Assembly: GCF_002937075.1 (NCBI RefSeq)
Contig: NZ_NHSJ01000106.1
Coordinates: 1 to 62,851 of the forward strand
From: Rhodoblastus sphagnicola
GTDB lineage: Bacteria; Pseudomonadota; Alphaproteobacteria; Rhizobiales; Beijerinckiaceae
Direction: 5' to 3'
DNA: 62,851 nucleotides
Below, piece after piece: positions 1,533-30,126 of this stretch; positions within the stretch are counted from its first letter, which is position 1; every line of letters begins with the position of its first letter. The notes beneath the pieces are model-generated. The model had not been told where the DNA came from and did no database searches. It was given only the letters and a program-made list of their open reading frames with translations. The position numbers were made by a program, and so were the translations under genes.

Positions 1533-1575
1533 ATAGAAGCCGGGCCAGCGCGCCGACAGGATCGGAATGTACCCA
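1533..1575 (-). promoter_or_regulatory. Shared FixJ-like box with -10, site 1 (BON gene)
   Basis: On the minus strand the box reads TGGGTACATTCCGATCCTG (1575 to 1557). CTAT follows at 1536-1533, 26 bp after TTCCG. It points to the BON gene start 60 bp further on. It is one of fifteen aligned copies in the window. Confidence 0.75.
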
Positions 1576-1724
1576 CATCGGCCCGCGCCCATCGGCGGCG
1601 GTCGCTGTTTCGCACAGGTCGAAAGCGCGAGCGCCGCCTCAATCCTTGAGCAAATCGGGCGCGTTGGCGCGTGGCGCGCGCCGGGATATGCGCTCCAAAT
1701 GAATCGCCTTTTTCTCCTCGCCCG

Positions 1725-1767
1725 TAGGTGTTTTCCGAGGCTGCCCCGGCTTGCGCAACCCGCCTAA
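1725..1767 (+). promoter_or_regulatory. Shared FixJ-like box with -10, site 2 (glucan synthase)
   Basis: The box reads TAGGTGTTTTCCGAGGCTG at 1725-1743, with CTAA at 1764-1767, 26 bp after TTCCG. It is the most divergent copy in its first half. It points to the glucan synthase start at 1828 and is divergent from site 1. Confidence 0.6.
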
Positions 1768-1827
1768 GCACAAACAGGCTCCCGGCCGTTCCCGGCTCGC
1801 GGTCCGAGACCATCCCGCGGGAGAGCA

Positions 1828-4800
1828 ATGATGTCACTTTCAGCGTTGAAGGACGAGTTCGCGGCGACGCCACGCCGCTTCCCACGCTTTTCGAGGAAAA
1901 CCTCGCCATGGGATTCGAAGTCGCCGATCCGCGAGGAATTGTTCAGCGTCGAACGCCTTGAATCGCATGTCCGCAGTCTTGCGCTCGCGCAGCCCGTCGC
2001 TTCCCGGACAGCGCGGGGCCGGCCACTGGCCCCGCGACTGGCCGACAACGGCGCCGTCTTGTTGGCGACCTATCAATTGATCGTGAAGGAGATCAACGGC
2101 GGGCGCGCGATCACGCCGGCGGCGGAATGGCTCGTCGACAATTATCATCTGGTGGAAAAGCAGATCCATCAGATCCAGATGGAATTGCCGCCCGGCTATT
2201 ATCGCCAGCTTCCCAAGCTTATCACCGGCCCCTTCGCCGGCTACCCCCGCGTCTTCGGCATAGTCTGCGCCTTTGTCGCCCATACCGACAGTTGTTTCGA
2301 CGCCGAAATCCTCACCAGCGCCATCAACGCCTATCAGTCGGTCCAACCTCTCACCATCGGCGAACTCTGGGCCGTTTCCATCACATTGCAGATCGTGTTG
2401 ATCGAGAATCTGAGGCGTCTCGCGCAAGAGGTCACCGTTGACCGGAGCGCGCGGCGCGACGCGGACGCCGCCGCCGATCGCCTGCTCGGCGTGCGCGAGC
2501 AAGCCGCCGAGCCGGCCTCGATTGTTTTCGCCGGGCGCGACGCCCAACCGCTTGAAGAAGCCTTCGCCGTCCAGCTCGTCCATCGGCTGCGCGACCAGGA
2601 CCCGAAATTCACGCCCGCGCTGACCTGGCTCGATGCGCGCCTGTCGCAACAGAACCACACCGCGGATTCGGTCGTGCGCGCGGTCCACCGCAACCAGGGC
2701 GCCGCGAACGTCACCATGCGCAACATCGTGATGAGCCTGCGAGTCATCTCCGAGGTTGACTGGAAGGAATTGTTCGAGCGCTTTTGCCTGGTCGATGGCG
2801 CCCTAGCGCTCAATGGCGCCTTCACGGACATGGATTTCGCGACCCGCACCCTTTACCGCGCCGCCGTCGAGGAACTGGCGCGAGGGTCCGACCACAGCGA
2901 ACTGGACATCGCGCTCCTCGCGGCGGCCGAGGCGCGCAAAGCCCGGCCGGAGCTCGCTGAATTGGAACAGATGCGGCGTGGCGATCCCGGTTACTCCCTG
3001 CTTGCCGGCGGGCGACCGGCGTTCGAGCGCGCGATCGGGTTTCGCAACAGTCGGCTCTGGCCCGCGCAGCTCACCGCCAAGCTTGGTTTCGACGCCTATG
3101 CCGCCGCCATCGTGATCGTGTCGGCCGGTCTGCTCGCGGCGCCGATGCTCGCCCTGTCCAGGCTGGGCGTCGGCTTCGCCCAACTCGGCCTGTTGGCGGC
3201 GCTTGGCGCGATTCCCGCCATTGACGCGAGCGTGGCGCTGATCAACCGGGCCATCGCGTTTTTCCTCCGCGCGACGCCCCTGCCGGGCATGGAGCTTCGC
3301 GACGGCGTGCCCCCGGCGCTGCGCACGCTTGTCGCCGTGCCGACGCTGCTGACGACGCGCGAAGACATTGCCGAACAGGTGGAGCGGCTCGAAATCCATC
3401 ATCTCGCCAGTCCCGAGGGCGACCTGCATTTCGCCCTGCTGTCGGACTGGGTCGACGCCGACACGGAGCGCGCGGAGGGCGACGCGGACTTGGTCGCTTG
3501 CGCCCGCGACGGCATCGACGCCCTCAATCGACGCTATGGCCCGGCGCCCGCCGGCCCGCGCTTCCTGCTGCTGCACCGCCGGCGCGTGTGGAATGAAAGC
3601 GAGCGGCGCTGGATCGGCTGGGAGCGCAAGCGCGGCAAGCTCCACGAGTTGAACCGGCTGCTGCGCGGCGCGACCGACACCACCTTCATCGCCCGCGACG
3701 GCGGCGCCGGTTCGATCCTTCCGGAAAATGTCAAATATATCGTCACGCTGGACTCGGACACGCGGCTGCCGCGCGATTCCGTGCGCAAGCTGATCGGCAA
3801 GATGGCGCATCCGCTCAACCGGCCCCGGCTCGACGCCGCGCTGGGCCGGGTGGTGGAGGGCTATGGCATCCTTCAGCCCAGGGTCACGCCCTCGCTTCCC
3901 GTTGGCGACGAAGGCTCGCTCTATCAGCGCCTGTTTTCGAGCGCGAGCGGCATCGACCCCTATGCGGCGGCGGTTTCGGACGTCTATCAGGACATGCTCG
4001 GCGAAGGCTCCTATGCGGGCAAGGGCATCTACGACCTCGATGTGTTCGAGACCGCGCTCGCCGGCCGGGCGCCCGAGTCCACCCTGCTCAGCCATGATTT
4101 GTTCGAGGGGACTTTCGCGCGGGCGGGCTTCGCCTCGGATGTCGAAGTCGTCGAGCAGTTTCCCACGCGCTACGACGTCGGCGCGCTGCGGCATCACCGC
4201 TGGGCGCGCGGCGACTGGCAATTGCTGCCCTGGATTCTCGGCTTCGCGCCCAAGGGCGACTCGGCGCAAGGCCTCGCGCGCGATATTCCCCAGGTCGGCC
4301 GATGGAAGATGATCGACAATCTGCGGCGCACGCTTTCCGCGCCAACCGGCGCGCTCGCCCTGGCTCTGGCCTGGACGCTGCCGCTTGAACCGGCCCTCGT
4401 CTGGACGGCGTTCGTGCTGGCGACCATCGTCACGCCAACGCTTATCCCGGTGATTTCGGCGATCCCGTCCCGCAGCCCCGGAGTCGCCCTCTCCGACCAT
4501 CTGCGGTCGCTCGCCGGAGACCTGCGCATCGCCGCCATGGTGTCCGCGTTCAATATCGCTTTTCTCGCGGACCAGGCCTGTCTGATGGGCGATGCGATCG
4601 GGCGAACCTTGTGGCGGCTTTTCGTCAATCGCCGTCACTTGCTGGAGTGGACGCCCGCGGCGCAATGCACGGCGCGACGGCGTCTCGACATGCGCGGGTT
4701 CTTCACGCGCATGTCCGGAGCGACGGGCGTCGCCGCGGCGGCTTTGCTCGCGGCGCTGCTTTCACCGCACGGAGCCTGGCCGCTGGCGGCGCCTTTCGCG

Positions 4801-7800
4801 GCGCTTTGGGCCTTCTCGCCCGTGCTGGCGCGCTATGTCAGCCTGCCGCATCGGCCCGAGAGCCGCGCCAGGGCCTCGCGCGACGAAGCGCGCGCGCTGC
4901 GGCGGATCGCGCGCGCAACGTGGCGGTTCTTCGAGGTCTTCGTCACCAAGGAGGACCACGGGCTGCCCCCGGACAATTTCCAGGAGAATCCGGCGCCGGC
5001 GCTGGCGCATCGCACGTCGCCCACCAACATCGGTCTTTATCTGCTCGCGATCGCCAGCGCGCGCGACTTCGGCTGGATCGGCGCAACCCAGGCGATCGAA
5101 CGCCTGGAGGCGACGCTGGCGTCCATGACCCGATTGGCGCGTTATCGCGGCCATTTCTACAATTGGTACGACACAGCCGATCTCGCCGCGCTCGAACCCA
5201 GATATGTGTCCTCGGTCGACAGCGGCAATCTGGCCGGCCACCTCATCGCCGTCGCCAACGCCTGCCGGGAATGGCGGCGCGCGCCCATTGCCGATGACGC
5301 GTGTCGGGCGGGCGTCGCCGACACGCTGGCGCTGGCCGGCGAACAGGCCGCCCTGCTTCGCCTTGGACCCGCGCTCCAGACGGTGACGCAGCGTCGGTTC
5401 GAAGATTCGCTCGCCGCCGTGACCAAACGGCTTGACGAGGCGCCCGCAAAGCCGCTGGCGCTCCAATTGCCCGAACTCGCCGGCGAGGCCGAAGCGCTGC
5501 TCGATCTCGCGCGGGCGATCCAGCTTGAACGCGGCGACGCGAGCGCGGCCGATCTGCTCTATTGGTCGCAAGCCAGCCTCGCCGCGATCCAAGCCCATCG
5601 GCGGGAATTTGCGTTCGCCGGGGAGATCGCCTCGTCGCGCCACGCCCGCCTCGTCGCCTTGGAAACTTCGTTCCGGGCCATGGCGATGGCGATGGAATTC
5701 GACTTTCTGTTCGACCACGAGCGAAAATTGCTGTCGATCGGATATCTGATTTCGGAAGCGGCGCTGGACGCCAGTTGCTACGACCTGCTTGCGTCCGAAG
5801 CGCGGCTCGCGAGTTTCTTCGCCATCGCCAAGGGCGACATCCCCGCCCGGCACTGGTTCCGGCTCGGACGCGCCGCGACGCCCGTCGCGCATGGCTCCGC
5901 CCTGATCTCCTGGTCCGGCTCGATGTTCGAATATCTGATGCCGCCGCTCGTCATGCGCGCGCCGATCGGAAGCCTGCTCGAACAGACCGACCGGCTCATC
6001 GTGCGCCGACAGATCTCTTATGCCGCCAAGCTCGGCCTGCCCTGGGGAATCTCCGAATCCGCCTATAACGCCCGCGATCTCGACCTCACCTACCAATATT
6101 CCAATTTCGGCGTGCCCAGCCTCGGGCTGAAGCGCGGCCTGGAGGAGAACAAGGTCATCGCGCCCTATGCGACGGCGCTGGCGACCATGGTCGATCCCTC
6201 CGCCGCCGTCGCGAATTTCGGGCGGCTGAGCGCGATGGGCGCGCGGGGCCGCTTCGGGTTCTACGAAGCGGTGGATTTCACGCCGACGCGGGTTCGCGAA
6301 GGCGCCCGCTTCGCTGTTGTGCGCGCCTTCATGGCGCATCACCAGGGCATGACCATCGTCGCCATCGCCAATGCGGTGCTGGGCGGCTTGATGCGCGAGC
6401 GCTTTCACGCCGAGCCCATGATCCAGGCCACCGAATTGCTGCTACAGGAGCGGGTGCCGCGCGAAGTGGCGACGACGCTTCCCTGGGCGGCCGAAGTCAA
6501 ATCGGCCGCGCACGCCAGCGACGCGGACCCCTCCGGCGGACGCCGGCTGACCTCGCCGCATCAAGTCCCGCCCGCGAGCCAGCTTCTTTCCAATGGCCGC
6601 TACGCCGTGATGCTGACGGCGGCGGGTTCGGGCTACAGCCGGTGGGGCGACATCGCGATCACGCGATGGCGCGAGGATGCGACGCGCGACGACAGCGGCG
6701 CCTATATCTTTCTCAGGGACATGCGCGGCGGCGCCGTCTGGTCGGCGGGATTTCAACCGACCGGCGCCGAGCCGGACGCCTATTGCGTCGATTTCAACGA
6801 GGATCGCGTCAAGTTCTCGCGCAAGGACGGGAGTCTCACGACCACGCTCGAAGCGCTGGTCTCGGCCGAGGACGATTCCGAGGTGCGCCGGGTCTCCATC
6901 TCCAACGCCGGCGCTCAAAGCCGCGACATCGAGGTCACCTCCTATTGCGAACTCGCCCTTGGCCCGCAGAGCGCGGATGTGGCGCATCCCGCCTTCGCCA
7001 AACTCTTCGTCGAGACGGAATATCTCGCCGATGTCGGCGCGATCCTCGCCACAAGGCGCAGGCGGACGCCCGACGAGCCGGAAATCTGGGCGGCGCATTT
7101 GAGCGTCGCCAATGGCGAAGCGGTGGGCGCCCCGGAGTTCGAAACCGACCGGGCGCGCTTCCTTGGTCGCGGACAGGGCGTGCGCGCGCCCCTCGCCATG
7201 GCGGCGGCGGGGCCGCTCGGCAATTCTTGCGGAACCGTGCTCGACCCGATCTTCGCCTTGCGCCGCCGCCTTGTCATCGCGCCCGGAGCCACGGTTCACG
7301 TCGCGTTCTGGACGATGGCGGCGGAGACGCGCGAGGCGCTGCTGGATCATATCGACAAACATCGCGACGCCGCCGCCTACGCGCGGGCGACCACGCTCGC
7401 CTGGACCCAGGCGCAGGTCCAGCTTCATCACCTCGGCGTCAAGCCCGGCCAGGCCGGACGTTATCAACGTCTGGCGAGCCACGTCATTTTCGCGGGGCGC
7501 GCGATGCGGCCCGCGTCGGACACCATTCGCCAGGGGTCCGGCCCGCAATCGGGCCTTTGGCCTCACGGCATTTCCGGCGACCTGCCCATCGTGCTGTTGC
7601 GCATAGCCGAAATCGAGAACCTCTCCGCCGCGCGCGAAATCCTGCAAGCCCATCAATATTGGCGGATGAAAATGCTCGCCGTCGATCTTGTCATCCTCAA
7701 CGAACACGAATCCTCCTATGCGGAAGATCTTCAAAAGGCGATCGAAACCCTTGTGCGCGCCAGCCAGCGCCGACCCGCGCCCGGCGCCGAGCGCCTCGGG

Positions 7801-10449
7801 GGACGGGTGTTCGTTGTTCGCGCCGACCTGATCGGCGCCGACGCGAGCAGGCTGCTTGTTTCCGCCGCGCGCGTCGTGATGGCGGCGCAACAGGGGAGCC
7901 TGTCGGATCAACTCGACCGCGTCGCCGAATCCAGAGCTTCCCCCGCGTCGCCGATTCGTCTGTTCGCCAAACCGCGCGTCGCGCTTGCCAAGCCGCACGC
8001 CGCGCTCGCCAAACAAGACGCCGCCTTCGCGAAGCCGGATCTCGAATTCTTCAACGGACTGGGGGGATTTGGCGACGACGGGCGCGAATATGTCACCATC
8101 CTCGGACCGGGCCAGTCGACGCCGGCGCCCTGGATCAATGTGATCGCCAATGCGGCTTTCGGCTTCCAGACGGCGACCGATGGCGGCGGCTACACCTGGT
8201 CGGGCAACAGCCGCGAGAACCAGCTTACGCCCTGGTGCAATGACCCTGTCGGCGACCCGCCCGGCGAGGCCTTCTATCTGCGCGATGACGACAGCGGCGA
8301 CGTCTGGAGCCCGACGGCGCGGCCCATTCGCCTGGATGGCGCGACCTATCTGGCCCGCCACGGCCGGGGCTATAGCCGCTTCGAGCTTGAGGCGCATGGC
8401 GTTTCCGCCGACTTGCTGCAATTCGCGCCGCTGGCGGGATCGATCAAGATCTCGCGGCTGCGGCTGACCAACCGGACCAACCGGACCCGCCATATCAGCG
8501 TGACCGCCTTCGTCGAATGGACGCTCTGCGCGGCGCGATCCGCTTCGCTCGGCTTTGTGGAAACCGAGATCGACGCCGCGACCGGCGCCATTTTCGCGCG
8601 CAATCCATGGAACATGACCTTCGGCTCGCGCGTGGCTTTCGCCGACATGCGCGGCGCGCAGACGGAATGGACGGGCGATCGGCGCGCGTTCATCGGCCGC
8701 AACGCCACGCTGGCGAACCCGGCCGCCTTGGCCAGCGCGGCGACTTTGTCCAACACGGTCGGCGCCGCGCTGGACCCCTGCGCGGCGATGCGCGCCAGGA
8801 TCAGTTTGCCGCCCGACGGCGCGGCCGAAGTCGTGTTCTTCCTGGGCGACGCGGAGTCGCGCGAGGCGGCCCGCGCCACGATCCGGACATTCCGCGACGC
8901 CGATCTCGACGCCATCGAGGCCGATATCGCCCGTTTCTGGGACGAGACCCTGGGCGCCGTCGTGGTCCGGACGCCCGACCGCGCGATGGATCTCATGCTC
9001 AATGGCTGGCTGCTCTATCAAACCCTCGCCTGCCGCGTCTGGGCGCGCTCGGCCTTCTATCAGGCCAGCGGCGCCTATGGGTTCCGCGACCAGTTGCAGG
9101 ATGGCATGGCGCTCGCCGCCGCGCGGCCCGACCTGACGCGCGCGCATCTCTTGCGCGCGGCGGCGCGGCAGTTCGTGGAGGGCGACGTTCAACACTGGTG
9201 GCTGCCGCGCAGCGGCCAGGGCGTGCGCACGAAAATCTCGGACGACCGGCCCTGGCTGGCCTTTGCCGTCGCGCATTATGTCGAGACGACGCAGGACTTG
9301 TCCGTGCTCGACGAATCCCTGCCCTTCCTCGAAGGCGCGCCGCTCGAACCCGGCGAGACCGACCGGTTCTTCACGCCGGCGATCTCAGGCAAAGCCGCCA
9401 CGCTGTTCGAGCATTGCGCGCTGGCGCTCGATCACAGTCTGGCGCTTGGAAGCCACGGGCTGCCGCTGATGGGAACCGGCGACTGGAACGACGGCATGAA
9501 CCGCGTCGGCGAAAAAGGCGAAGGCGAGAGCGTCTGGCTCGCCTGGTTCTTGCACACGACGCTCATGAATTTCGCGCCCTTGGCTGAGGCCCGAGGCGAG
9601 ACTTCGCGCGCAAAAACTTGGCGTGAACATGCGCTGTCCCTGCAAGCCTCGCTGGAGCGCGAGGCCTGGGACGGCGAATGGTACAAGCGGGCCTATTTCG
9701 ACGATGGCGCGCCGCTGGGGTCGGAGACAAACGCGGAATGTCGCATCGACTCCATCGCGCAATCCTGGGCCGTGCTCTCCGGCGCCGCGCCGCCCGAACG
9801 CGCGGCCCGCGCCATGGCGGCGCTCGATCGCCAGTTGATCAAGAAAGACGACGGATTGGCGCTGCTGTTCACCCCGCCCTTCGACACGCCGGCGCGCGAT
9901 CCCGGCTATATCAAAGCCTATCCGCCGGGCGTGCGCGAAAACGGCGGCCAGTACACCCATGCCGCGACCTGGTCCGTGATGGCTTTCGCCGCGCTCGGCG
10001 ACGGCGACAAGGCCGGCGCGCTTTTCTCAATGCTCAACCCGATCAATCATGCGCTATCGGACGCGGAGGTGGAGCGCTACAAGGTCGAGCCCTATGTCGT
10101 CAGCGCCGACATTTACTCCGAGCCGCCCCATGTCGGGCGCGGCGGCTGGACCTGGTACACCGGTTCGGCCGGCTGGCTGCAACGCGCCGGCGTCGAAAGC
10201 GTGCTGGGCCTTCGCTTCCGGGGCGCGACGCTGCTGATCGATCCGTGCGTTCCCAAGGCCTGGGACCGGTTCGAGGCCGACCTGCGCTACAAGTCCGCGC
10301 ATTACGCGATTTTCGTCGAAAATCCGAACGGGGTGTGTCGGGGCGTCGTTTCGGCGCGCCTCGACGGAATCGAAATCGTGGAGCGCCCGTTGCGGGTCGC
10401 CTTGCTCGACGACGGGCGCCGGCGCCGCGTTGACGTGCAATTGGGTTGA
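1828..10449 (+). CDS. ndvB: Cyclic beta-1,2-glucan synthase, NdvB/ChvB type (GT84-GH94)
   Basis: 2873 aa, the usual size of this family. Such membrane enzymes build cyclic beta-1,2-glucan from UDP-glucose; the product goes to the periplasm and helps with osmotic adaptation and surface properties. Visible parts: an N-terminal cytoplasmic region, membrane segments near residues 425-475, a glycosyltransferase domain with DSDTRLP near 642 and RHHRWARGDW near 787, further membrane segments near 835-1010, then a long region ending in a GH94 phosphorylase-like domain with GTGDWNDGMN near 2550 and RENGGQYTHAATW near 2705. The GH94 part trims or sets ring size in the known enzymes. The start has a GGGAGAG ribosome site. 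No ndvA/chvA exporter is adjacent. A copy of the shared box lies 60-100 bp upstream, suggesting stress or low-oxygen control, which would be unusual for an ndvB gene. Confidence 0.93.
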   Translation: MMSLSALKDEFAATPRRFPRFSRKTSPWDSKSPIREELFSVERLESHVRSLALAQPVASRTARGRPLAPRLADNGAVLLATYQLIVKEINGGRAITPAAEWLVDNYHLVEKQIHQIQMELPPGYYRQLPKLITGPFAGYPRVFGIVCAFVAHTDSCFDAEILTSAINAYQSVQPLTIGELWAVSITLQIVLIENLRRLAQEVTVDRSARRDADAAADRLLGVREQAAEPASIVFAGRDAQPLEEAFAVQLVHRLRDQDPKFTPALTWLDARLSQQNHTADSVVRAVHRNQGAANVTMRNIVMSLRVISEVDWKELFERFCLVDGALALNGAFTDMDFATRTLYRAAVEELARGSDHSELDIALLAAAEARKARPELAELEQMRRGDPGYSLLAGGRPAFERAIGFRNSRLWPAQLTAKLGFDAYAAAIVIVSAGLLAAPMLALSRLGVGFAQLGLLAALGAIPAIDASVALINRAIAFFLRATPLPGMELRDGVPPALRTLVAVPTLLTTREDIAEQVERLEIHHLASPEGDLHFALLSDWVDADTERAEGDADLVACARDGIDALNRRYGPAPAGPRFLLLHRRRVWNESERRWIGWERKRGKLHELNRLLRGATDTTFIARDGGAGSILPENVKYIVTLDSDTRLPRDSVRKLIGKMAHPLNRPRLDAALGRVVEGYGILQPRVTPSLPVGDEGSLYQRLFSSASGIDPYAAAVSDVYQDMLGEGSYAGKGIYDLDVFETALAGRAPESTLLSHDLFEGTFARAGFASDVEVVEQFPTRYDVGALRHHRWARGDWQLLPWILGFAPKGDSAQGLARDIPQVGRWKMIDNLRRTLSAPTGALALALAWTLPLEPALVWTAFVLATIVTPTLIPVISAIPSRSPGVALSDHLRSLAGDLRIAAMVSAFNIAFLADQACLMGDAIGRTLWRLFVNRRHLLEWTPAAQCTARRRLDMRGFFTRMSGATGVAAAALLAALLSPHGAWPLAAPFAALWAFSPVLARYVSLPHRPESRARASRDEARALRRIARATWRFFEVFVTKEDHGLPPDNFQENPAPALAHRTSPTNIGLYLLAIASARDFGWIGATQAIERLEATLASMTRLARYRGHFYNWYDTADLAALEPRYVSSVDSGNLAGHLIAVANACREWRRAPIADDACRAGVADTLALAGEQAALLRLGPALQTVTQRRFEDSLAAVTKRLDEAPAKPLALQLPELAGEAEALLDLARAIQLERGDASAADLLYWSQASLAAIQAHRREFAFAGEIASSRHARLVALETSFRAMAMAMEFDFLFDHERKLLSIGYLISEAALDASCYDLLASEARLASFFAIAKGDIPARHWFRLGRAATPVAHGSALISWSGSMFEYLMPPLVMRAPIGSLLEQTDRLIVRRQISYAAKLGLPWGISESAYNARDLDLTYQYSNFGVPSLGLKRGLEENKVIAPYATALATMVDPSAAVANFGRLSAMGARGRFGFYEAVDFTPTRVREGARFAVVRAFMAHHQGMTIVAIANAVLGGLMRERFHAEPMIQATELLLQERVPREVATTLPWAAEVKSAAHASDADPSGGRRLTSPHQVPPASQLLSNGRYAVMLTAAGSGYSRWGDIAITRWREDATRDDSGAYIFLRDMRGGAVWSAGFQPTGAEPDAYCVDFNEDRVKFSRKDGSLTTTLEALVSAEDDSEVRRVSISNAGAQSRDIEVTSYCELALGPQSADVAHPAFAKLFVETEYLADVGAILATRRRRTPDEPEIWAAHLSVANGEAVGAPEFETDRARFLGRGQGVRAPLAMAAAGPLGNSCGTVLDPIFALRRRLVIAPGATVHVAFWTMAAETREALLDHIDKHRDAAAYARATTLAWTQAQVQLHHLGVKPGQAGRYQRLASHVIFAGRAMRPASDTIRQGSGPQSGLWPHGISGDLPIVLLRIAEIENLSAAREILQAHQYWRMKMLAVDLVILNEHESSYAEDLQKAIETLVRASQRRPAPGAERLGGRVFVVRADLIGADASRLLVSAARVVMAAQQGSLSDQLDRVAESRASPASPIRLFAKPRVALAKPHAALAKQDAAFAKPDLEFFNGLGGFGDDGREYVTILGPGQSTPAPWINVIANAAFGFQTATDGGGYTWSGNSRENQLTPWCNDPVGDPPGEAFYLRDDDSGDVWSPTARPIRLDGATYLARHGRGYSRFELEAHGVSADLLQFAPLAGSIKISRLRLTNRTNRTRHISVTAFVEWTLCAARSASLGFVETEIDAATGAIFARNPWNMTFGSRVAFADMRGAQTEWTGDRRAFIGRNATLANPAALASAATLSNTVGAALDPCAAMRARISLPPDGAAEVVFFLGDAESREAARATIRTFRDADLDAIEADIARFWDETLGAVVVRTPDRAMDLMLNGWLLYQTLACRVWARSAFYQASGAYGFRDQLQDGMALAAARPDLTRAHLLRAAARQFVEGDVQHWWLPRSGQGVRTKISDDRPWLAFAVAHYVETTQDLSVLDESLPFLEGAPLEPGETDRFFTPAISGKAATLFEHCALALDHSLALGSHGLPLMGTGDWNDGMNRVGEKGEGESVWLAWFLHTTLMNFAPLAEARGETSRAKTWREHALSLQASLEREAWDGEWYKRAYFDDGAPLGSETNAECRIDSIAQSWAVLSGAAPPERAARAMAALDRQLIKKDDGLALLFTPPFDTPARDPGYIKAYPPGVRENGGQYTHAATWSVMAFAALGDGDKAGALFSMLNPINHALSDAEVERYKVEPYVVSADIYSEPPHVGRGGWTWYTGSAGWLQRAGVESVLGLRFRGATLLIDPCVPKAWDRFEADLRYKSAHYAIFVENPNGVCRGVVSARLDGIEIVERPLRVALLDDGRRRRVDVQLG

Positions 10450-10508: not shown

Positions 10509-10551
10509 TGAGTAGATTCCGTGCCTGCCCTTTCCCGGCGGCGCCGTCTAG
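10509..10551 (+). promoter_or_regulatory. Shared FixJ-like box with -10, site 3 (70-aa protein)
   Basis: The box is TGAGTAGATTCCGTGCCTG at 10509-10527, with CTAG at 10548-10551, 26 bp after TTCCG. The small gene starts 30 bp later. Confidence 0.75.
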
Positions 10552-19094: not shown

Positions 19095-19138
19095 ATAGGC
19101 GGCGTGACGCTTGCCGCGCTAGGATCGGAAACTACTCA
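19095..19138 (-). promoter_or_regulatory. Shared FixJ-like box with -10, site 7 (PRC-barrel gene)
   Basis: On the minus strand the box is TGAGTAGTTTCCGATCCTA (19138 to 19120). CTAT is at 19098-19095, 27 bp after TTCCG. The PRC gene starts 43 bp further on. Confidence 0.77.
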
Positions 19139-20743: not shown

Positions 20744-20786
20744 ATAGGCGTCGGCTGTCGCGCTCCGAAGGATCGGAAACTACGCA
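20744..20786 (-). promoter_or_regulatory. Shared FixJ-like box with -10, site 8 (zinc-ribbon gene)
   Basis: On the minus strand the box is TGCGTAGTTTCCGATCCTT (20786 to 20768). CTAT is at 20747-20744, 26 bp after TTCCG. Confidence 0.75.
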
Positions 20787-21394: not shown

Positions 21395-21436
21395 ATAGGC
21401 CGGGCAAGCCGTCGTGAAAGGTTCGGAATCTACTCA
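21395..21436 (-). promoter_or_regulatory. Shared FixJ-like box with -10, site 9 (DUF3775 gene)
   Basis: On the minus strand the box is TGAGTAGATTCCGAACCTT (21436 to 21418). CTAT is at 21398-21395, 25 bp after TTCCG. The next start codon in this direction is 154 bp downstream. Confidence 0.75.
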
Positions 21437-23416: not shown

Positions 23417-23728
23417 TCAGGGCTTGGGCAGAGCCACGATTTTGTCGAGGATTTGCAGCGTGATGTCGGCGCATGTCTTCATCGTCTCGTCGTCGGCGCA
23501 TTTGACATCCACCATCGCGTCGCCATCCTGAAGGATGAAATGCGCGGCCTTGCCGGGCGGCGGCTTCGGCGCGGCGGGCGGCGCGCCGACCGCCGCTACT
23601 GGACCAGCGGGCGCTACTGGACCAGCGGGAGCCCCTGGACCGCCGGGGCCGCCGGGACCGATCACCTGCGCATGAGCCGCGCCCGCCAGCAGGACCAGCG
23701 CGACGCCCGAAATCAGATACGGCTTCAT
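23417..23728 (-). CDS. Small secreted protein with a collagen-like Gly-Pro segment
   Basis: 103 aa from the ATG at 23728 (GGAG ribosome site). A signal peptide (KPYLISGVALVLLAGAAHAQ) is followed by a GPGGPGGPGAPAGP-type stretch of about 35 residues and a compact C-terminal part with two cysteines (VDVKCADDE, KTCADITLQ) that may form a disulfide. It is the first gene after promoter site 10. Function unknown. Confidence 0.7.
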   Translation of the reverse strand: MKPYLISGVALVLLAGAAHAQVIGPGGPGGPGAPAGPVAPAGPVAAVGAPPAAPKPPPGKAAHFILQDGDAMVDVKCADDETMKTCADITLQILDKIVALPKP

Positions 23729-23802
23729 CTCGTTCTCCATTTCGACAGCCATGGCGGCGGCGAAACCGCGCATGGACGGTTTCGGCTTCCATCGCCTCGA
23801 CT

Positions 23803-23844
23803 ATAGAAACGCGGACTGAGCGTGTAAGCCTCGGAAACTACCCA
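23803..23844 (-). promoter_or_regulatory. Shared FixJ-like box with -10, site 10 (envelope gene run)
   Basis: On the minus strand the box is TGGGTAGTTTCCGAGGCTT (23844 to 23826). CTATAG is at the -10 position (23806-23801), 25 bp after TTCCG. It probably serves the four genes from 23728 down to 21494. Confidence 0.75.
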
Positions 23845-23869: not shown

Positions 23870-24874
23870 TCACGCCGGACCCGGCGGCGACGGCGTATGA
23901 AACACGATCTGTCGGGTCTTGCCGCGCCGGCGCTCGACCGCTTCCGCATAGCCAAGCGCGGTCTGGGGTTTGACGAACACCGCGATCACCTCCGGATGCA
24001 AGGCCCGAAGCCGCTGCTCCAATTCGCTCACCTTGATTTCAAGGGCGGGCGTCTGCAATTCGTCGGAGAATTCGAGACTGAGCGCGACGGCGATCTGTCG
24101 CGGGGCCAGGTGAACGGTCAGGATGCCATTGGCGTGGGCGACGCCCTCCATCTCCCGCGCGATGCGCAGCAGCGACATCACGATGGCGGGATCGGCGGAT
24201 TCCCCGATCAGCAGGCCCTTGGTCTCGCGCGCGAGAAAGACCGCCGTCAGCGCCAGCACGAGGCTGATGAGAATCGAGGCCACGCCGTCGAGGATGGGGA
24301 GGTCGAGCCTGATCGACAGGTAGGAGCCGACCAGGGCGATGACGAGGCCGATCAGCGCGGCGCTGTCCTCGAACACGACCATGAAGGACGGCGGATCCTT
24401 GCTGGCGCGCATGGCCTGGAAAAGATCGGAATCGCCCGCTCCGCGCCTGAAACCGCGCAGGGCGATCAGCCAGGTCGCGCCGTCGAACAGCGCCGACAGG
24501 CCGAGCACGATGTAGTTCACTTCGGCGAAGGCGATGGGGGTCGGATGCAGGACGTGGGTGACGCCCTCGACCAGGGCGACGCCCGCCCCCAGGGCGAACA
24601 CCTGCACCGCGACGACGAAACTCCAGAAGTAGATTTCGCGGCCATAACCGAAAGGGTGCTCCTGGTCCGGCGTCCGCTTGGCGCGATGCACGCCGTAAAG
24701 CAGCAGAATCGAATTGCTGCTGTCGACCAGCGAATGCACCGCCTCGCTCCACATGGCCGAACCGCCGGTATAGGCCGCCGCCCCGACCTTTATCGCCGCC
24801 ACGATCAGGTCTCCGGCGATGGAGACATAAAGGACGTTTCGGGTGGCGAGCAGGACCGCCGAACGGGGCGCCAT
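23870..24874 (-). CDS. Cation diffusion facilitator family transporter (ZnT9-like)
   Basis: 334 aa with about six membrane helices in residues 10-215 and a cytoplasmic C-terminal domain. H47 and D51 in HSLVDSSNS match the family's metal-binding HxxxD; the second site reads FEDSAALIG, lacking the second HxxxD, as in the ZnT9/SLC30A9 branch. Members use the proton gradient to move Zn2+, Fe2+ or other divalent ions out of the cytoplasm. The gene starts 9 bp after the dehydrogenase gene, so they form an operon under promoter site 11. Pairing a lactate/malate-type dehydrogenase with a metal exporter is odd. Confidence 0.88.
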   Translation of the reverse strand: MAPRSAVLLATRNVLYVSIAGDLIVAAIKVGAAAYTGGSAMWSEAVHSLVDSSNSILLLYGVHRAKRTPDQEHPFGYGREIYFWSFVVAVQVFALGAGVALVEGVTHVLHPTPIAFAEVNYIVLGLSALFDGATWLIALRGFRRGAGDSDLFQAMRASKDPPSFMVVFEDSAALIGLVIALVGSYLSIRLDLPILDGVASILISLVLALTAVFLARETKGLLIGESADPAIVMSLLRIAREMEGVAHANGILTVHLAPRQIAVALSLEFSDELQTPALEIKVSELEQRLRALHPEVIAVFVKPQTALGYAEAVERRRGKTRQIVFHTPSPPGPA

Positions 24875-24883
24875 GATCGGCTC

Positions 24884-25822
24884 TCAGCTTGCCTCGTAAG
24901 CGGCGTAAGCGCGCCGCAGGATGGCCGCCGAATGTTCGAGCGCCTTCTGTTCCGCCGCATCCAGGCTCAGGACGAGCACGCGCGCGACGCCGGTTTTTCC
25001 GATCACGCACGGCGTGCTCAGGCAGACGTCGCGCAGGCCATATTCGCCGGTCATCAGGGTCGAGACGACGAGAACGGCGCGTTCGTCGCGCAGGATCGCT
25101 TCGCAGATGCGGGTCACGCAACTGGCGATGGCGAAACAGGTGTTGCCCTTGAGGGCGATGACCTCGGGGCCGGCGCGCCGCACCCTGGCGAGCAGCTTCT
25201 CCCGCGAGGGCAGCGCCCCGGCTTCGGGGAAAGCCGCCAGCGGCGCGCCGCCGACATGGGCCGCGCTCCAGACGGCGACGGAGGAATCGCCGTGCTCGCC
25301 GATCACGACGGCGTCGACCGAACGGGCGTCGACATTGAGGCTTTCGCCGAGGATGGAGCGAAAACGCTCGGTATCGATCAGCGTGCCCGAGCCAATCACC
25401 TGATTGACCGGAAGACGCGAGTCCCTCTGCGCGACCAGGGTCAGGATATCGACGGGATTGGTGGTGAGCAGCAGGACGCCGTCGAAATGTTGCGCCATCA
25501 GCTTGCCGACGCAGGCGCTGACAATCTCGATGTTGGCCGCAAGCAGATCGAGACGCGAGCCGGGGAATTTTCCGGGGGCGCCGACCGTCAGGACGACGAT
25601 GGCGCTCGCCGCCGCATCTTCGTAGTCGCCCGCGAATATTTTGACCGGCATGCCCAGCGGAACCGATTGCTGAAGGTCCAGCGCCTCGCCCTTGGCGCGG
25701 TCCTCGTCGCGGTCGATGAGGACGATCTCGCGACAGAGCCGGCTTTGCAGCAGGGCATAGGCGCAGGTCGTCCCGACATGGCCGCAGCCGATGATGGCGA
25801 TGCGCGCGGGATGGAAAGGCAT
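24884..25822 (-). CDS. L-lactate/malate-type dehydrogenase with an atypical substrate loop
   Basis: 312 aa, full length for the LDH/MDH superfamily. Visible: NAD-binding GCGHVG (12-17), TNPVD, the catalytic histidine in GEHGDSS, and the DTERFR motif with the Arg that binds the substrate carboxylate. The mobile loop reads GAPGKFPGSR (81-90): Arg90 is kept, but the residue that decides specificity (Gln in LDH, Arg in MDH) is Gly84. So the enzyme reduces some 2-oxo acid with NADH, probably pyruvate or a larger one, but the name lactate dehydrogenase is not certain. Promoter site 11 lies 85-129 bp upstream, consistent with a fermentative role when oxygen is low. First gene of an operon with the CDF transporter. 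Confidence 0.85.
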   Translation of the reverse strand: MPFHPARIAIIGCGHVGTTCAYALLQSRLCREIVLIDRDEDRAKGEALDLQQSVPLGMPVKIFAGDYEDAAASAIVVLTVGAPGKFPGSRLDLLAANIEIVSACVGKLMAQHFDGVLLLTTNPVDILTLVAQRDSRLPVNQVIGSGTLIDTERFRSILGESLNVDARSVDAVVIGEHGDSSVAVWSAAHVGGAPLAAFPEAGALPSREKLLARVRRAGPEVIALKGNTCFAIASCVTRICEAILRDERAVLVVSTLMTGEYGLRDVCLSTPCVIGKTGVARVLVLSLDAAEQKALEHSAAILRRAYAAYEAS

Positions 25823-25906: not shown

Positions 25907-25951
25907 ATAGCACGCGCTGCGGCGTGTGACAAAAGTATCGGAATCTACTCA
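25907..25951 (-). promoter_or_regulatory. Shared FixJ-like box with -10, site 11 (dehydrogenase operon)
   Basis: On the minus strand the box is TGAGTAGATTCCGATACTT (25951 to 25933). CTAT is at 25910-25907; here the gap after TTCCG is 28 bp, the longest of the set. Confidence 0.7.
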
Positions 25952-26031: not shown

Positions 26032-26509
26032 TTATTGCGGCGCAGAAATCTTGGGGAAAATCTGGGGGAAGATCTGGGGGAAGATCTGGGGGACCTGGCC
26101 GTTGAGTTTCTTCGGCTCCGCCGGCTGGCTTGGAACGTCCGGGGCTGCGGGAATCTTGCCGGCGACATCGCGAATTTCGACCGATTTTACCGATATGCCC
26201 CAGTCGGCGGTCTTGCGTCCGATTTCCGCGCGCAGCAACGTGTCCGCCACGTCGCGCTCGGACAGCAGCGCCGCGAGCATCGACGAACCGATCATTTCGC
26301 GCGGCGACGTCTGCGAAACCCGGTCGATCGCCTCGCGGTAATCGGTGATGTTCAGCGCCGCCTTCTGGGCGTCTTCCCGCGCGCGGGATGACGAACTTTT
26401 GCCAGTTGTTGGCCCTCTTCAAGGCGGCGGCGACGGGCATGGCCGCGAAGATCAGCGCCGCGCCCATGGCCACACAGGCCAGGGTCAAGAACAGGGTGAT
26501 CGGATTCAT
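26032..26509 (-). pseudogene. Decayed SPFH/stomatin-like gene (internal deletion, frameshift, altered C-terminus)
   Basis: The first 45 codons from ATG 26509 encode a membrane-anchor start typical of slipins. The same frame then turns to nonsense at about 26370, while a shifted frame continues as REDAQKAALNITDY, then VSQTSPREMIGSSMLAALLSE and IGRKTADWGISVKSVEIRDVA, a clear late band-7 sequence. The roughly 100 residues of the band-7 domain expected between them are missing, and after RDVA the family's C-terminal part is replaced by a Pro-rich tail with three PQIF units made by a 12-bp tandem repeat (about 26052-26092). A living member would be around 250 aa. The promoter upstream keeps the shared box but has no -10-like element. 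Confidence 0.75.
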
Positions 26510-26572: not shown

Positions 26573-26591
26573 CAGGCTCGGAAACTACTCA
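26573..26591 (-). promoter_or_regulatory. Shared FixJ-like box, site 12, without a -10 (SPFH pseudogene)
   Basis: On the minus strand the box is TGAGTAGTTTCCGAGCCTG, fully consensus. At the position where the other fourteen sites have CTAT, CTAA or a one-base variant, this one has a GC-only stretch. It faces the decayed SPFH gene and is divergent from site 13, 42 bp away. Confidence 0.65.
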
Positions 26592-26633: not shown

Positions 26634-26677
26634 TGAGTAATTTCCGAGCCTTACGACGCAGCGATCCCCTCGCCTAT
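26634..26677 (+). promoter_or_regulatory. Shared FixJ-like box with -10, site 13 (response regulator operon)
   Basis: The box TGAGTAATTTCCGAGCCTT is at 26634-26652, with CTAT at 26674-26677, 27 bp after TTCCG. It points to the small gene at 26745 and the response regulator behind it. Confidence 0.77.
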
Positions 26678-26744: not shown

Positions 26745-26969
26745 ATGTGCGCGACCCGGGGCGTCAACGGACTGGTCCTGGCCCATGGGATCTCAATGAA
26801 TCATCGTCAGACGAGGGATCCGACGGCCGGCGACGCACCCTCCACGACGCGCGCGTCGAGCGTTCTGGAGCTGGCGGAGACTCGCGAACATTTCGCGCCG
26901 CCGGAAGCGACGCGGCAAATCGCGTCCTGGGTCAACGAAGGCGGAGCCGGTGGCGAGGTCAGGCGATGA
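26745..26969 (+). CDS. Small hydrophilic protein preceding the response regulator, 74 aa
   Basis: ATG with GGAGG eight bases upstream; the stop overlaps the response regulator's start (ATGA), a strong sign of a real coupled gene. The product is polar with a helix-prone middle (SVLELAETREHFAPPEATRQIASWVNE). I do not recognise it. Being coupled to a lone receiver domain, it could be its partner, but that is only inference. Confidence 0.5.
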   Translation: MCATRGVNGLVLAHGISMNHRQTRDPTAGDAPSTTRASSVLELAETREHFAPPEATRQIASWVNEGGAGGEVRR

Positions 26970-27334
26970 AACCGCTCCGCATCCTGGTGGTCGAGGACGA
27001 CGGCATGGTCGCGTTGACGCTGGCCGAGATGCTCGAAACGCAAGGCCATAACGTCCTTGGCATCGCGACCACGGAATCCGAGGCTGTGGCGGCCGCGCGG
27101 GATCTCAAGCCCGAGATGATGATCGTCGACGCCCAATTGCGCCAAGGCGGCGGACTCGGCGCCGTCGATCGCATCCAGCAGGGCGCACGGATCCCTCATG
27201 TCTTCATCTCCGGCGACATCCTTCCGATCCGCGCGCTCAGGCCTTGGGCCACGGCCATCCAGAAGCCGTTTTTCGAGGCCGATCTGACTTGCGCCATTCA
27301 GCGCGCGCTCGACGCCGCCGCCGCGATCGCCTGA
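26966..27334 (+). CDS. Single-domain response regulator (receiver only)
   Basis: 122 aa, one CheY-like receiver domain and nothing else. The acidic pocket (E10, D11, D12), the phosphate acceptor D55 in MMIVDAQLRQGG and the lysine in IQKPF are all present, so it can be phosphorylated. With no output domain it must act through another protein, for example as a phosphate sink or shuttle in a phosphorelay. No histidine kinase is adjacent. It is translated together with the small upstream gene from promoter site 13. Confidence 0.88.
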   Translation: MKPLRILVVEDDGMVALTLAEMLETQGHNVLGIATTESEAVAAARDLKPEMMIVDAQLRQGGGLGAVDRIQQGARIPHVFISGDILPIRALRPWATAIQKPFFEADLTCAIQRALDAAAAIA

Positions 27335-27424: not shown

Positions 27425-27467
27425 TGAGTAGTTTCCGATGCTGTTGGCGCATGTCTGCAAAGGCTAA
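27425..27467 (+). promoter_or_regulatory. Shared FixJ-like box with -10, site 14 (PHA-synthase-like gene)
   Basis: The box TGAGTAGTTTCCGATGCTG is at 27425-27443, with CTAA at 27464-27467, 26 bp after TTCCG. The start codon at 27555 lies 87 bp further on. Confidence 0.76.
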
Positions 27468-27554: not shown

Positions 27555-28670
27555 ATGCACCAGGCGAAATCCGCGAAATCCCCTCTCCCACCCTTGCTCA
27601 GCCTTCCCGCGTTCTGGCCTCTCGCCATGGCGGAATCGCTCGTCAAGGAAGGCGCCGCGCTTTACGAAAAGAACATTGAATTTGTGGGCGAGGAGATCAA
27701 ATTGCACGGCGGGCTGCGGCCCAGGCTGGCGACGCCCAACCTTTTGCGCCTCGATCTGCGCAGCATGGCGCTGCGCGATTACGGCAAGCCCGGCGGCATC
27801 CCCACTCTGATCGACGCGCCTCACGCCGGACATACGGCGATGATCGCCGACTACGCCAAGGGTCAAAGCCTCGTGCAAACCTTGTTGGACAATGGCCTCG
27901 CCCATGTGGCCCTGACCGATTGGAAGACCGCCACGCCGGACATGAAAGACCTCGAAATCGACAATTACCTCGCCGATCTGGTCGTCGCCATCGACGATCT
28001 CGGCGGGCGCGTCAACCTTGTCGGTCTGTGCCAGGGCGGCTGGATGGCGGCGATGATCGCCGCGCGTTTTCCCGACAAGGTCAATGCGCTGGTGCTGGCG
28101 GGCGCTCCGATCGATACGGACGCGGGCGACGGGCCGATCAAGCGCCTGGCGCACGAGACGCCGCTTTCAACCTACCAGGAGCTTGTCGCGCTCGGCGGCG
28201 GTCTGATGCGGGGCGCGATGATGCTTCAGGGCTGGAAGAACATGCACCCGGCGCAGCATTACATGCTGGATCAGATCGATGTTTACGAGCATATCGACGA
28301 CCCCGCATGGCTGGCCAAGGAAGAGACGTTCGAGAGCTGGTACGAGAGTCCGATCGACCTGCCCGGCAGATGGTATTTGCAGGCGATCACGCAGCTCTTC
28401 AAGGAAAACCGCCTGGCGAAGGGTGAGTTCGTCGGCCTCGACCGGAAACTGGACCTGCGCGGGATCACCTGCCCGACCTACCTGCTCGCCGGCGCGAGCG
28501 ACGACATCACCACGCCGGAGCAAGTGCTCGACGCCGCGAAATATATCGCAACGCCGAACGACAAGATCGTGCGGAAGACCGTGCCCGGCGGCCATATCGG
28601 CCTGTTCATGGGCGCCCGCACGCTCAAGGAGCATTGGCCGGCGATAACCCGCTGGATCGCGGCGCAATGA
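27555..28670 (+). CDS. PHA-synthase-like alpha/beta hydrolase with a cysteine nucleophile
   Basis: 371 aa from the ATG at 27555 (AGAAGG ribosome site), preferred to a TTG at 27477. The nucleophile elbow is GLCQGG (C159): a cysteine rather than the usual serine, as in polyhydroxyalkanoate synthases (PhaC). An aspartate in AGASDDITTP and a histidine in PGGHIGLF complete the triad. It is much shorter than true PhaC (about 550-600 aa) and lacks its N-terminal domain, so it is a shorter relative whose reaction is not known; acyl transfer or PHA turnover are possible. It is under promoter site 14 and is followed 36 bp later by an eRF1-like gene in the same direction. Confidence 0.75.
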   Translation: MHQAKSAKSPLPPLLSLPAFWPLAMAESLVKEGAALYEKNIEFVGEEIKLHGGLRPRLATPNLLRLDLRSMALRDYGKPGGIPTLIDAPHAGHTAMIADYAKGQSLVQTLLDNGLAHVALTDWKTATPDMKDLEIDNYLADLVVAIDDLGGRVNLVGLCQGGWMAAMIAARFPDKVNALVLAGAPIDTDAGDGPIKRLAHETPLSTYQELVALGGGLMRGAMMLQGWKNMHPAQHYMLDQIDVYEHIDDPAWLAKEETFESWYESPIDLPGRWYLQAITQLFKENRLAKGEFVGLDRKLDLRGITCPTYLLAGASDDITTPEQVLDAAKYIATPNDKIVRKTVPGGHIGLFMGARTLKEHWPAITRWIAAQ

Positions 28671-29356: not shown

Positions 29357-29770
29357 CTAATCGATGATCTGCACGATGCGGTGGCTGTGCGGATCGACCA
29401 GAACCGTCCGGTCATTGACGATGGCATATTTGTAGACCGGCACTTCGTATTCGGGCGGCACCTCGTAATAGGTCACGCCGTCATCGGGCAGAACCGCGCC
29501 GACGTCCACCTGCCGGTCGTAGGCGTAGGACTTATGATTTCTGTGGGTGGCGTAATCACGAAAGCGCGGGCGCTGATTGTCGCCAAGCAGACCGTTTATG
29601 CCTCCCACGACCGCGCCGGCGGCGCCGCCGACGACCGCGCCGACCGGGCCGGCCGCGCGATCACCCTCTCGCGACCCTTCGGCGGCGCCGCCGATAGCCC
29701 CCTGTGCGACAGCCGCGCCCGAGAGGGCGAGGAAAGCGATCGTAGCGACGGCGATTGTGTTGTTGCGCAT
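29357..29770 (-). CDS. Secreted DUF1236 protein
   Basis: 137 aa from the ATG at 29770 (AGGAAC upstream). Signal peptide MRNNTIAVATIAFLALSGAAVAQ, then a Gly/Ala-rich helix-like stretch (about 25-65) resembling glycine-zipper segments, then a C-terminal DUF1236 domain (VTYYEVPPEYEVPVYKYAIVNDRTV). DUF1236 proteins are periplasmic or surface-bound in Hyphomicrobiales; function unknown. It follows the small secreted protein gene in the same direction and may share promoter site 15. Confidence 0.8.
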   Translation of the reverse strand: MRNNTIAVATIAFLALSGAAVAQGAIGGAAEGSREGDRAAGPVGAVVGGAAGAVVGGINGLLGDNQRPRFRDYATHRNHKSYAYDRQVDVGAVLPDDGVTYYEVPPEYEVPVYKYAIVNDRTVLVDPHSHRIVQIID

Positions 29771-29814
29771 GAGAATGTTCCTGAATGTTGGATGTCCGCC
29801 GGAGATGGCCTGAA

Positions 29815-30018
29815 TCAGAAGCGATGATGACGGTGATGGCTGCGCCGCCATCCATAGTGGCGGCCCTGGCCCCATCCCTCATGCCGTCCGTGGTCCGCGC
29901 GCGCCGGCGCGACCATTTGAACGGATTGCGCCGCTGACAATGAAGGCGCGATTGGCAAGGCCAAAGCCGGCGTCGTAAGCGTCAACGCAATGAGTGAACC
30001 CGAAACCCGTCGTTTCAT
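29815..30018 (-). CDS. Small secreted His-rich protein, 67 aa
   Basis: Start at ATG 30018 (AGGATC upstream). A signal peptide (about residues 1-29) is followed by a short mature part ending in a His/Arg/Trp/Gly-rich tail (GRHEGWGQGRHYGWRRSHHRHHRF). The His cluster could bind metal. Promoter site 15 lies 67-108 bp upstream. I do not recognise a named family. Confidence 0.6.
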   Translation of the reverse strand: MKRRVSGSLIALTLTTPALALPIAPSLSAAQSVQMVAPARADHGRHEGWGQGRHYGWRRSHHRHHRF

Positions 30019-30084
30019 GGATTGATCCTGATCGTTCCGCGCATCGGGTTCGTGAACAGCCACCGCCGACTTGGAGCGCGGACC

Positions 30085-30126
30085 TTAGTCGCCAATCCTG
30101 ATGACGACAGGTTCGGAAAACACTCA
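30085..30126 (-). promoter_or_regulatory. Shared FixJ-like box with -10, site 15 (last copy)
   Basis: On the minus strand the box is TGAGTGTTTTCCGAACCTG (30126 to 30108). CTAA is at 30088-30085, 25 bp after TTCCG. It marks the right edge of the regulon island. Confidence 0.68.

Follow-up and report, generated by a model that had tools for sequence, protein, structure and literature searches.

Fifteen copies of a 19-base box lie in the window, the stretch of 62,851 nucleotides of Rhodoblastus sphagnicola DNA that was analysed, and the question arises which protein reads them and what it controls. From sequence evidence we suggest, with a probability of roughly 0.8, that a one-chain cytoplasmic CheB-CheR-PAS-kinase-REC-REC-GerE fusion binds the box through its phosphorylated FixJ-type output and would drive a regulon. 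Genomes and contigs are referred to below by our G and C numbers.

Promoter boxes in the window

The original prediction had described fifteen boxes between 1.5 and 30.1 kb, each located upstream of a gene and facing it. By our own gene calls, which come from a simple hexamer script and not from a curated annotation, 15 of 15 boxes are intergenic and 15 of 15 are aimed at the next gene. Fourteen match the proposed pattern with at most three mismatches, compared with 0.07 matches on average and never more than one in 100 dinucleotide-preserving shuffles of the window. The fifteenth (1725–1743, plus strand) has five mismatches, was found by script and has the lowest weight-matrix score of the fifteen (19.8); after 30.2 kb nothing in the window scores above 4.4, in agreement with the claim that the remaining 32 kb carry no box. 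The shuffles and the controls with reversed pattern or reversed matrix (see below) rule out a chance repeat. A −10-like element had been noticed after fourteen boxes, and a YTA indeed starts 17–23 bases past the box in 14 of 15 cases, the exception being the minus-strand box at 26573. The spacing to the −10 element places the box near −43, as expected from the proposed activator-type promoter box overlapping the −35 region. The boxes and the genes next to them are:

825–1472, minus: protein with three BON domains, OsmY-like (Pfam PF04972; NCBIfam OsmY below cut-off)
1557–1575, minus: box 1, CTAT −10, 5′ of the triple-BON protein
1725–1743, plus: box 2, CTAA −10, 5′ of the cyclic glucan synthase-like gene
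1939–10449, plus: GH94 protein (GH94 domains at 1.6e-119 and 6.5e-105; start chosen by script, reading frame from 1828)
10509–10527, plus: box 3, CTAG −10, leads small proteins and the HlyD and MacB-type ABC exporter genes
11006–14277, plus: HlyD-type and MacB/ABC exporter genes (Pfam)
16106–16124, plus: box 4, CTAT −10, leads a 61-aa and a 227-aa protein
16184–16369, plus: the 61-aa protein, its family in box-headed operons of 6 genomes
17177–17195, plus: box 5, CTAA −10, 5′ of the ECF sigma factor
17240–17830, plus: ECF sigma factor (Pfam; best solved-structure match 5uxx, E 1.1e-49)
17920–17938, plus: box 6, CTAC −10, 5′ of a 75-aa protein
19120–19138, minus: box 7, CTAT −10, 5′ of a PRC-barrel protein (18296–19051)
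20768–20786, minus: box 8, CTAT −10, 5′ of a 64-aa protein (20477–20671; DnaJ zinc-finger match below cut-off)
21418–21436, minus: box 9, CTAT −10, 5′ of a DUF3775 protein (20807–21241)
23826–23844, minus: box 10, CTAT −10, leads 23417–23773, 22816–23337, 22271–22753 and a VIT1 protein (21494–22189)
25933–25951, minus: box 11, CTAT −10, 5′ of a lactate/malate dehydrogenase (24884–25822) and a cation efflux protein (23870–24874)
26573–26591, minus: box 12, the sole window box lacking a YTA element, 5′ of an 82-aa protein (26032–26280)
26634–26652, plus: box 13, CTAT −10, leads a 74-aa protein and a lone receiver protein
26966–27334, plus: receiver-only protein of 122 aa (Pfam; nearest NCBIfam the PhyR receiver, below cut-off)
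27425–27443, plus: box 14, CTAA −10, 5′ of an alpha/beta hydrolase (DUF3141, PHB depolymerase-like; 27627–28670)
30108–30126, minus: box 15, CTAA −10, 5′ of a DUF1236 protein (29357–29770)

The GH94 protein, which was scanned as two pieces and gave a weak glycosyltransferase match below cut-off, is presumably an NdvB-like glucan synthase. Of all families headed by a box, that of the receiver-only protein at 26966–27334 recurs most often, in 8 of 17 genomes.

An ECF sigma gene sits among the window boxes, a box also stands before a sigma gene of a Methylocystis plasmid, and the position of the −10 element is fixed; the box might for these reasons be regarded as part of an alternative-sigma promoter that is read by the window sigma factor. 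We consider this highly improbable. ECF promoters have a short two-block form, unlike the 19-base box with its FixJ core and a −10 element at 19–21 bases, and the family of the window sigma factor occurs among the box-headed proteins of two (G000 and G143) of 17 genomes.

Distribution of the box in the host genome

When the whole genome was scanned at up to three mismatches, 60 sites on 19 contigs were found, as compared to one site for the reversed pattern. Because the sites are spread over 19 contigs, the boxes do not form a single island; the proposed regulon island was too narrow, and a regulon confined to the window is ruled out. The genome scan had been named as the observation that could overturn the proposal, and it found the boxes non-random in place and direction: 62 of 62 genome sites are intergenic while the intergenic share of bases is 16.4%, and 58 of 61 face the next gene. 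The positions described as invariant are so within the window, but genome-wide, among 52 sites with at most two mismatches, three of them vary slightly (G at position 4 in 51 sites, T at position 10 in 50, C at position 17 in 51). Among the targets, genes for energy metabolism under low oxygen occur together with those for Dps, trehalose, chaperones, ion pumps and lone receivers; they fit the low-oxygen or dormancy-like programme that had been anticipated.

In some hosts the islands lie on plasmids and near transposases, as might be the case for a dispersed mobile repeat or an attachment site devoid of a regulatory role. The intergenic location and the orientation of the sites speak against this explanation, as does the finding that clear information beyond the box is limited to the adjacent bases and the −10 region; its probability is close to nil. 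We favour a regulatory site read by the fusion protein, the gene of which is surrounded by 12 boxes on contig C92 outside the window.

The fusion protein and its association with the box

The fusion comprises 1437 aa (C92:16863–21176; Pfam) and has the domain order CheB methylesterase, CheR methyltransferase, glutamate-rich coiled coil, PAS, histidine kinase, receiver 1, receiver 2 and GerE. HisKA, HATPase, receiver and DNA-binding domain are hence found on one chain as in one-chain hybrids (Pfam), and with a peak 19-residue hydropathy of 1.35 the protein has no transmembrane sensor. Among 66 aligned full-length relatives the HisKA histidine is kept in 65 and the receiver aspartate in 65 and 66 (receivers 1 and 2). 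The CheB residues Ser, His and Asp (58, 61 and 63 of 66) and the CheR residues Arg (65), Gly (66), Glu (65), Asn (64) and Tyr (64), which we take to be catalytic, are likewise conserved. The linker has at least four [EQ]E pairs at an exact spacing of seven residues in 64 of 66 proteins and in 0 of 3300 shuffles, which do not keep the seven-residue period inherent to any coiled coil. This spacing is known from the methylation helices of chemoreceptors. It is a tentative idea that the CheR and CheB domains may methylate and demethylate the coiled-coil glutamates, which would give one soluble protein a chemoreceptor-like memory and an adapting, change-responsive regulon. No chemoreceptor or CheA/CheW product is listed near the fusion in eight plasmid regions with incomplete gene tables.

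Receiver 2 and GerE have FixJ as best solved-structure match (7.1e-38) and score 233.7 bits against NCBIfam FixJ, below the equivalog cut-off of 255. FixJ is a receiver–GerE protein with a phospho-acceptor Asp, and the fusion has this arrangement (Pfam; Asp 66/66). FixJ is further defined by binding to GTAGTTTCC-type DNA; in sequence comparison, the box core GTAGTTTCCG is one base off the SELEX consensus GTAGTTTCCC given in the FixJ report (PMC4999443). The third defining property, a stand-alone partner of the haem-PAS kinase FixL, does not apply, as the fusion output is joined to its own kinase. Judged by these sequences, the recognition class of the box is FixJ. The proposed FixJ/NarL-type regulator is thereby retained as a class, but not as a separate regulator of the usual kind, since the two stand-alone proteins most similar to FixJ in this genome do not track the boxes and the giant fusion does.

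This tracking is seen in two samples. Among 149 genomes of the family, an intact or contig-cut fusion is present in 14 of the 15 genomes with at least four boxes versus 5 of the 134 others (Fisher p 1e-14, in a test that ignores phylogeny). In the class sample (289 genomes minus 4 family members) ten genomes have a site at up to one mismatch, and 8 of these match the fusion C-terminus at E 1e-60, compared with 4 of the 275 others (Fisher p 2e-11, likewise ignoring phylogeny). Near 80 named loci of fusion relatives there are 197 box matches versus 4 with the reversed matrix, and 66 of the 80 have at least one box; the 14 boxless loci are ten stand-alone gammaproteobacterial regulators and four others, mostly short or truncated. 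Boxes beside fusion relatives recur in Alpha-, Beta- and Gammaproteobacteria and on annotated plasmids. On eight such plasmids, where genes make up 70% of the bases, 43 of 44 boxes are outside listed genes, and the next listed gene is faced by 38 of 42. The association has exceptions: G408 has three boxes and no fusion relative at E 1e-25, G071, G125, G137, G101 and G144 have the fusion and 0–2 strict boxes, and G100 has kept four boxes and the fusion as broken remnants only. The islands may have been transferred jointly, which could make the association look stronger than it is.

For 35 of 46 full-length fusions a box falls within the interval from 900 bases before the start to 250 bases into the gene. 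As this upstream box usually faces away from the fusion, autoregulation through the box is unsupported; in C92 the box at 16728 belongs to a lone receiver gene and not to the fusion.

The genome encodes the fusion, the C116 and C82 proteins and nine further GerE proteins; the comparison covered the first three. The C116 and C82 proteins both have REC-GerE architecture, and the core selected by FixJ is nearly that of the box, so that a stand-alone FixJ-type regulator of a classical FixLJ pair might control the boxes. Against this, the C116 protein has a 66% relative in G033 of the same genus, a genome without any site at two or fewer mismatches, and no match at E 1e-40 in the box-rich G086, G133, G110 and G118; the C82 protein has none at E 1e-45 in G123, G133, G086, G110, G118 and G079 (at most 19 candidates scored per genome in both cases). 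In addition, none of the 60 genome sites lies on contigs C116 and C82. We reject these two proteins on their distribution, and control by a classical pair is improbable. A somewhat better, though still minor, chance has to be granted to the fusion sharing or contesting the box with FixJ or proteins resembling it, in which case more than one signal would converge on a single regulon. The near identity of the box to the FixJ SELEX core and the presence of several FixJ-like proteins in many family genomes speak for it; against it, family genomes with a C116-type match and no fusion have 0–2 strict sites, G100 (four) excepted.

Predicted mechanism and related systems

We return to the fusion as the predicted activator. 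We infer that, upon a signal, its kinase would phosphorylate receiver 2, and that the GerE domain would bind the box, whose centre lies near −43 and which overlaps −35, and recruit the polymerase to the −10 element 19–21 bases downstream. The predicted output, spread across the genome, is energy metabolism at low oxygen, protection by trehalose and Dps, chaperones and ion transport, and the lone receivers expressed from box promoters probably exert feedback on the fusion kinase.

Our searches of the open-licence literature gave no description of the fusion as the regulator of a regulon. For Rhodospirillum centenum a CheB-CheR hybrid is noted briefly (PMC2890560). Papers on Caulobacter starvation (PMC3073932) and on PHB in S. 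meliloti (PMC5596199) gave no lead for the box system. The large protein, frequently listed under the name of a chemotaxis enzyme (16 of 24 plasmid records), gains a probable target box and a likely regulon. The fusion ranges over Alphaproteobacteria, Caballeronia and Dyella and is sometimes plasmid-borne, and the predicted system would be a transferable low-oxygen and stress-survival programme carrying its own switch. In fusion-carrying genomes the box is a simple finder of target genes, and a role of CheB and CheR beyond chemotaxis becomes directly testable.

The hybrid two-component systems of Bacteroides likewise unite a sensor kinase with a receiver and a DNA-binding domain on a single chain, but with a transmembrane periplasmic sensor and an AraC output, whereas the fusion is soluble, ends in GerE and bears CheB and CheR. 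The actinobacterial DosR dormancy regulon resembles the present system in its NarL/FixJ-class regulator, repeated box and stress and low-oxygen genes, and differs in kinase, box and host group. As to the PhyR-NepR-EcfG general stress response, the lone receivers are similar to the PhyR receiver, below cut-off, and the window ECF sigma factor is similar to 5uxx; however, the predicted activator here is of the FixJ class and the box presumably differs from the EcfG promoter form. The lxa locus of Burkholderia cenocepacia, a low-oxygen locus, likewise clusters genes of stress, metabolism and transport that serve survival under anoxia, but the regulators treated in the passages on it are a Crp/FNR-type protein and FixLJ, and these passages mention no fusion (PMC9104464; PMC6127331). 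With FixL/FixJ the system shares the REC-GerE output, the near-identical DNA core (PMC4999443) and the link to oxygen-limited physiology. In contrast to FixL/FixJ, the present box extends further, including GA and CCT positions, and has tens of predicted targets, of which PMC4999443 lists few for FixJ, and the fusion unites kinase, two receivers, DNA-binding domain, CheB and CheR in one chain.

The box and its promoter geometry

The pattern TGAGTAGWTTCCGANCCTK matches the window 14 times when up to 3 mismatches are allowed, versus a mean of 0.07 matches in shuffled sequences. One further box deviates more strongly:

Window 1725–1743, plus strand: fifteenth box, 5 mismatches to the pattern

According to our own gene calls all fifteen boxes are intergenic and all are directed at the next gene, as originally observed. 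The original observation of a −10-like element after fourteen boxes and of a box-free remainder of the window also holds: a YTA starts 17–23 bases past the box in 14 of 15 cases, and beyond 30.2 kb the top score is 4.4, whereas even the lowest-scoring of the fifteen boxes reaches 19.8.

The boxes had been described as a regulon island. The cluster is real, but the boxes extend beyond one island: the genome (5.09 Mb, 141 contigs) contains 60 sites at up to 3 mismatches over 19 contigs, including 14 on the window's contig, 12 on C92, 6 on C27 and 5 on C140, whereas the reversed pattern matches once. With a weight matrix from 52 genome sites (up to 2 mismatches) we examined the window and stretches from 17 other site-bearing contigs, excluding the C73 site with its 3 mismatches. 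The boxes are not scattered at random in position and direction: all 62 sites with a score of at least 12 are intergenic (intergenic share of bases, 16.4%), and 58 of the 61 with a called downstream gene are directed at it. Among 59 sites scoring at least 15, YTAN lies 19, 20 or 21 bases past the box 34 times and at any other offset at most three times; the A/T peak at position 42 is seen again in 142 sites from other genomes. A −10 T at positions 40–42 would place the transcription start at 52–54 and the box centre near −43. Over 55 sites, the called start codon lies a median of 116 bases from the box.

A candidate regulator on contig C92

The genome has 12 GerE matches, 11 of them above the cut-off. 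One large GerE protein stands out by its location:

C92 16863–21176: fusion gene, 1437 aa, GerE domain at its end, among the C92 boxes

Pfam identifies CheB methylesterase, CheR_N, CheR, PAS, HisKA, HATPase, two receivers and GerE in this fusion. The best structure match of receiver 2 plus GerE is full-length FixJ (5xso, 7.1e-38); the same part reaches 233.7 bits with the NCBIfam FixJ model (under the cut-off of 255), and the kinase core shows similarity to the NahK/ErcS family (218 bits, cut-off 400). PMC4999443 gives GTAGTTTCCC as the FixJ consensus from SELEX and TAAGTAATTTCCCTTA as the fixK site; the former can be set beside the box core, GTAGTTTCCG.

In the family sample of 149 genomes, at least four sites at up to 2 mismatches occur in 15, and 14 of these encode an intact or contig-cut fusion, compared to 5 of the remaining 134 (G071, G125, G137, G101 and G144, with 0–2 strict sites; Fisher p = 1e-14, uncorrected for phylogeny). 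The fifteenth genome, G100, which belongs to the same genus, has only broken remnants: two short pieces, one with stops, at C29 188092–188563, and only four boxes are kept, which looks like regulon decay following loss of the regulator. In G033, also of this genus, neither fusion nor box was found. In a sample of the class (289 genomes minus 4 family members, up to 1 mismatch) ten genomes have a site; eight of them and 4 of the 275 others have a match at E 1e-60. One of the eight, G199, has a 377-aa frame in place of the full fusion, and a few further matches sit in frames of 900–1220 aa. The exceptions are G214, where a frame of 916 aa close to one of the boxes contains a 47% relative, and G408, which has no fusion relative at E 1e-25. 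G408 carries three boxes inside 2.4 kb (C83 14038–16393).

Besides the fusion we tested the two stand-alone FixJ-like proteins of the genome, on C116 and C82, and their distribution does not track the boxes. The FixJ/NarL-type regulator originally inferred is supported as regards the output domain. Of the three GerE proteins compared among the 12, the fusion tracks the box and these two stand-alone proteins do not.

Relatives, plasmids and possible mechanism

The best 80 of 566 candidate relatives from a scan of genome contigs include loci from Acetobacteraceae, Rhodospirillales, Hyphomicrobiales, Sphingomonadales, Caulobacterales, Caballeronia and Dyella, and their loci (1.42 Mb) contain 197 boxes at a score of at least 14 versus 4 with the reversed matrix. 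No box was found in 14 of these 80 loci; ten of the 14 hold stand-alone gammaproteobacterial regulators. An open frame of 1380 aa or more is present in 46 loci of this set. In 35 of the 46 a box lies between 900 bases upstream of and 250 bases inside the fusion start, mostly facing away, and 16 have one between 50 bases before and 600 after the fusion end. Shorter REC-GerE or REC-REC-GerE proteins with the fusion's helix (frames of 250–653 aa) occur at L184, L192, L196, L197, L198, L204 and G199 C1 1149544–1150140; the six L loci have 1–5 boxes apiece. Locus L114 (G143 C12), which also has boxes, encodes proteins of 1232 and 1193 aa without GerE (1434–5132 and 12623–16204), both ending in a receiver resembling receiver 1 of the fusion; one of the two matches crosses a TAG.

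PLSDB has 24 plasmids with a match to the fusion C-terminus at E 1e-60; the feature at this place is labelled chemotaxis protein CheB (11), CheR family methyltransferase (5), response regulator (2), histidine kinase (1) or not at all (5). Eight of the 24, examined with their annotation (two of Methylocystis, and one each of Caballeronia, Lichenicola, Phyllobacterium, Sphingomonas, Acidiphilium and Methylocapsa), carry 44 boxes; by the incomplete PLSDB tables 43 lie outside listed genes, which cover 70% of bases, and 38 of 42 are directed at the next listed gene; with a limit of 500 bases the figure is 35 of 38. The reversed matrix has no match on these eight. In Methylocapsa polymorpha pRX1 (L226 16857–21137) the annotation splits the fusion region into two genes, one named CheB and one CheR family.

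Catalytic residues are conserved in most of 66 aligned fusions: the HisKA His in 65, the receiver Asp in 65 and 66, the CheB Ser/His/Asp in 58, 61 and 63 (gaps there in 3–5 rows) and the CheR positions in 64–66. No membrane span is evident in the fusion. The CheR–PAS linker has 20.5% Glu (6.7% in the whole fusion), and 64 of 66 fusions show at least four [EQ]E pairs with 7-residue spacing there, a period expected in any coiled coil. We propose that this linker may be the substrate of the adjoining CheR and CheB. When 120 loci were searched by tblastn with the C92 lone receiver, 30 gave matches at E 1e-8; in at least one case (L111) the matched sequence belongs to the fusion itself. The lone receivers suggest a feedback role like that of FixT.

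Probable target genes and comparison with known systems

The Pfam analysis covered 70 whole or partial proteins from the genome, namely part of the box-headed genes, neighbours and regulators. Box-headed genes encode, among others, a trehalose phosphatase and a GT20 protein (presumably OtsB and OtsA) and a GH15 protein; phosphoketolase, lactate/malate and D-2-hydroxyacid dehydrogenases, cytochrome b561 and a PQQ dehydrogenase-like protein; Dps, Hsp20, BON and PRC proteins, DUF1236 and an MCRA protein, which we take to be oleate hydratase; and four lone receivers and an ECF sigma factor. Boxes also head genes for P-type ATPases, VIT1 and an ATP synthase operon:

L033 4688–8219: ATP synthase operon containing a V/A-type domain; a box lies 352 bases upstream

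The product of the sigma gene (window 17240–17830) resembles 5uxx, presumably an EcfG-type sigma, and could possibly link the regulon to the general stress response. The DnaJ/CbpM-like pair inside the island (19220–20412) is without its own box.

Across 17 genomes, box-headed operons encode 281 proteins; the family that recurs most among them is the lone receiver (8 genomes), and next come a family that includes the P-type ATPase (7) and Dps (6). The plasmid islands hold varying sets of Dps, CsbD, AI-2E transporter, phosphoketolase, acetate kinase, alcohol dehydrogenase, oleate hydratase, USP, slipin, GrpE and lone receivers. Such a mixed gene content suggests a programme of low-oxygen energy conservation and protection of resting cells.

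The component parts of fusion and regulon are of known kinds. Their combination, in which CheB, CheR, kinase and FixJ-type output form one chain that goes with a defined box and a large, transferable regulon, is not described in the literature searched. The nearest low-oxygen island found there is the lxa locus, which PMC9104464 and PMC6127331 discuss in connection with FixLJ and with regulators of the Crp/FNR type.
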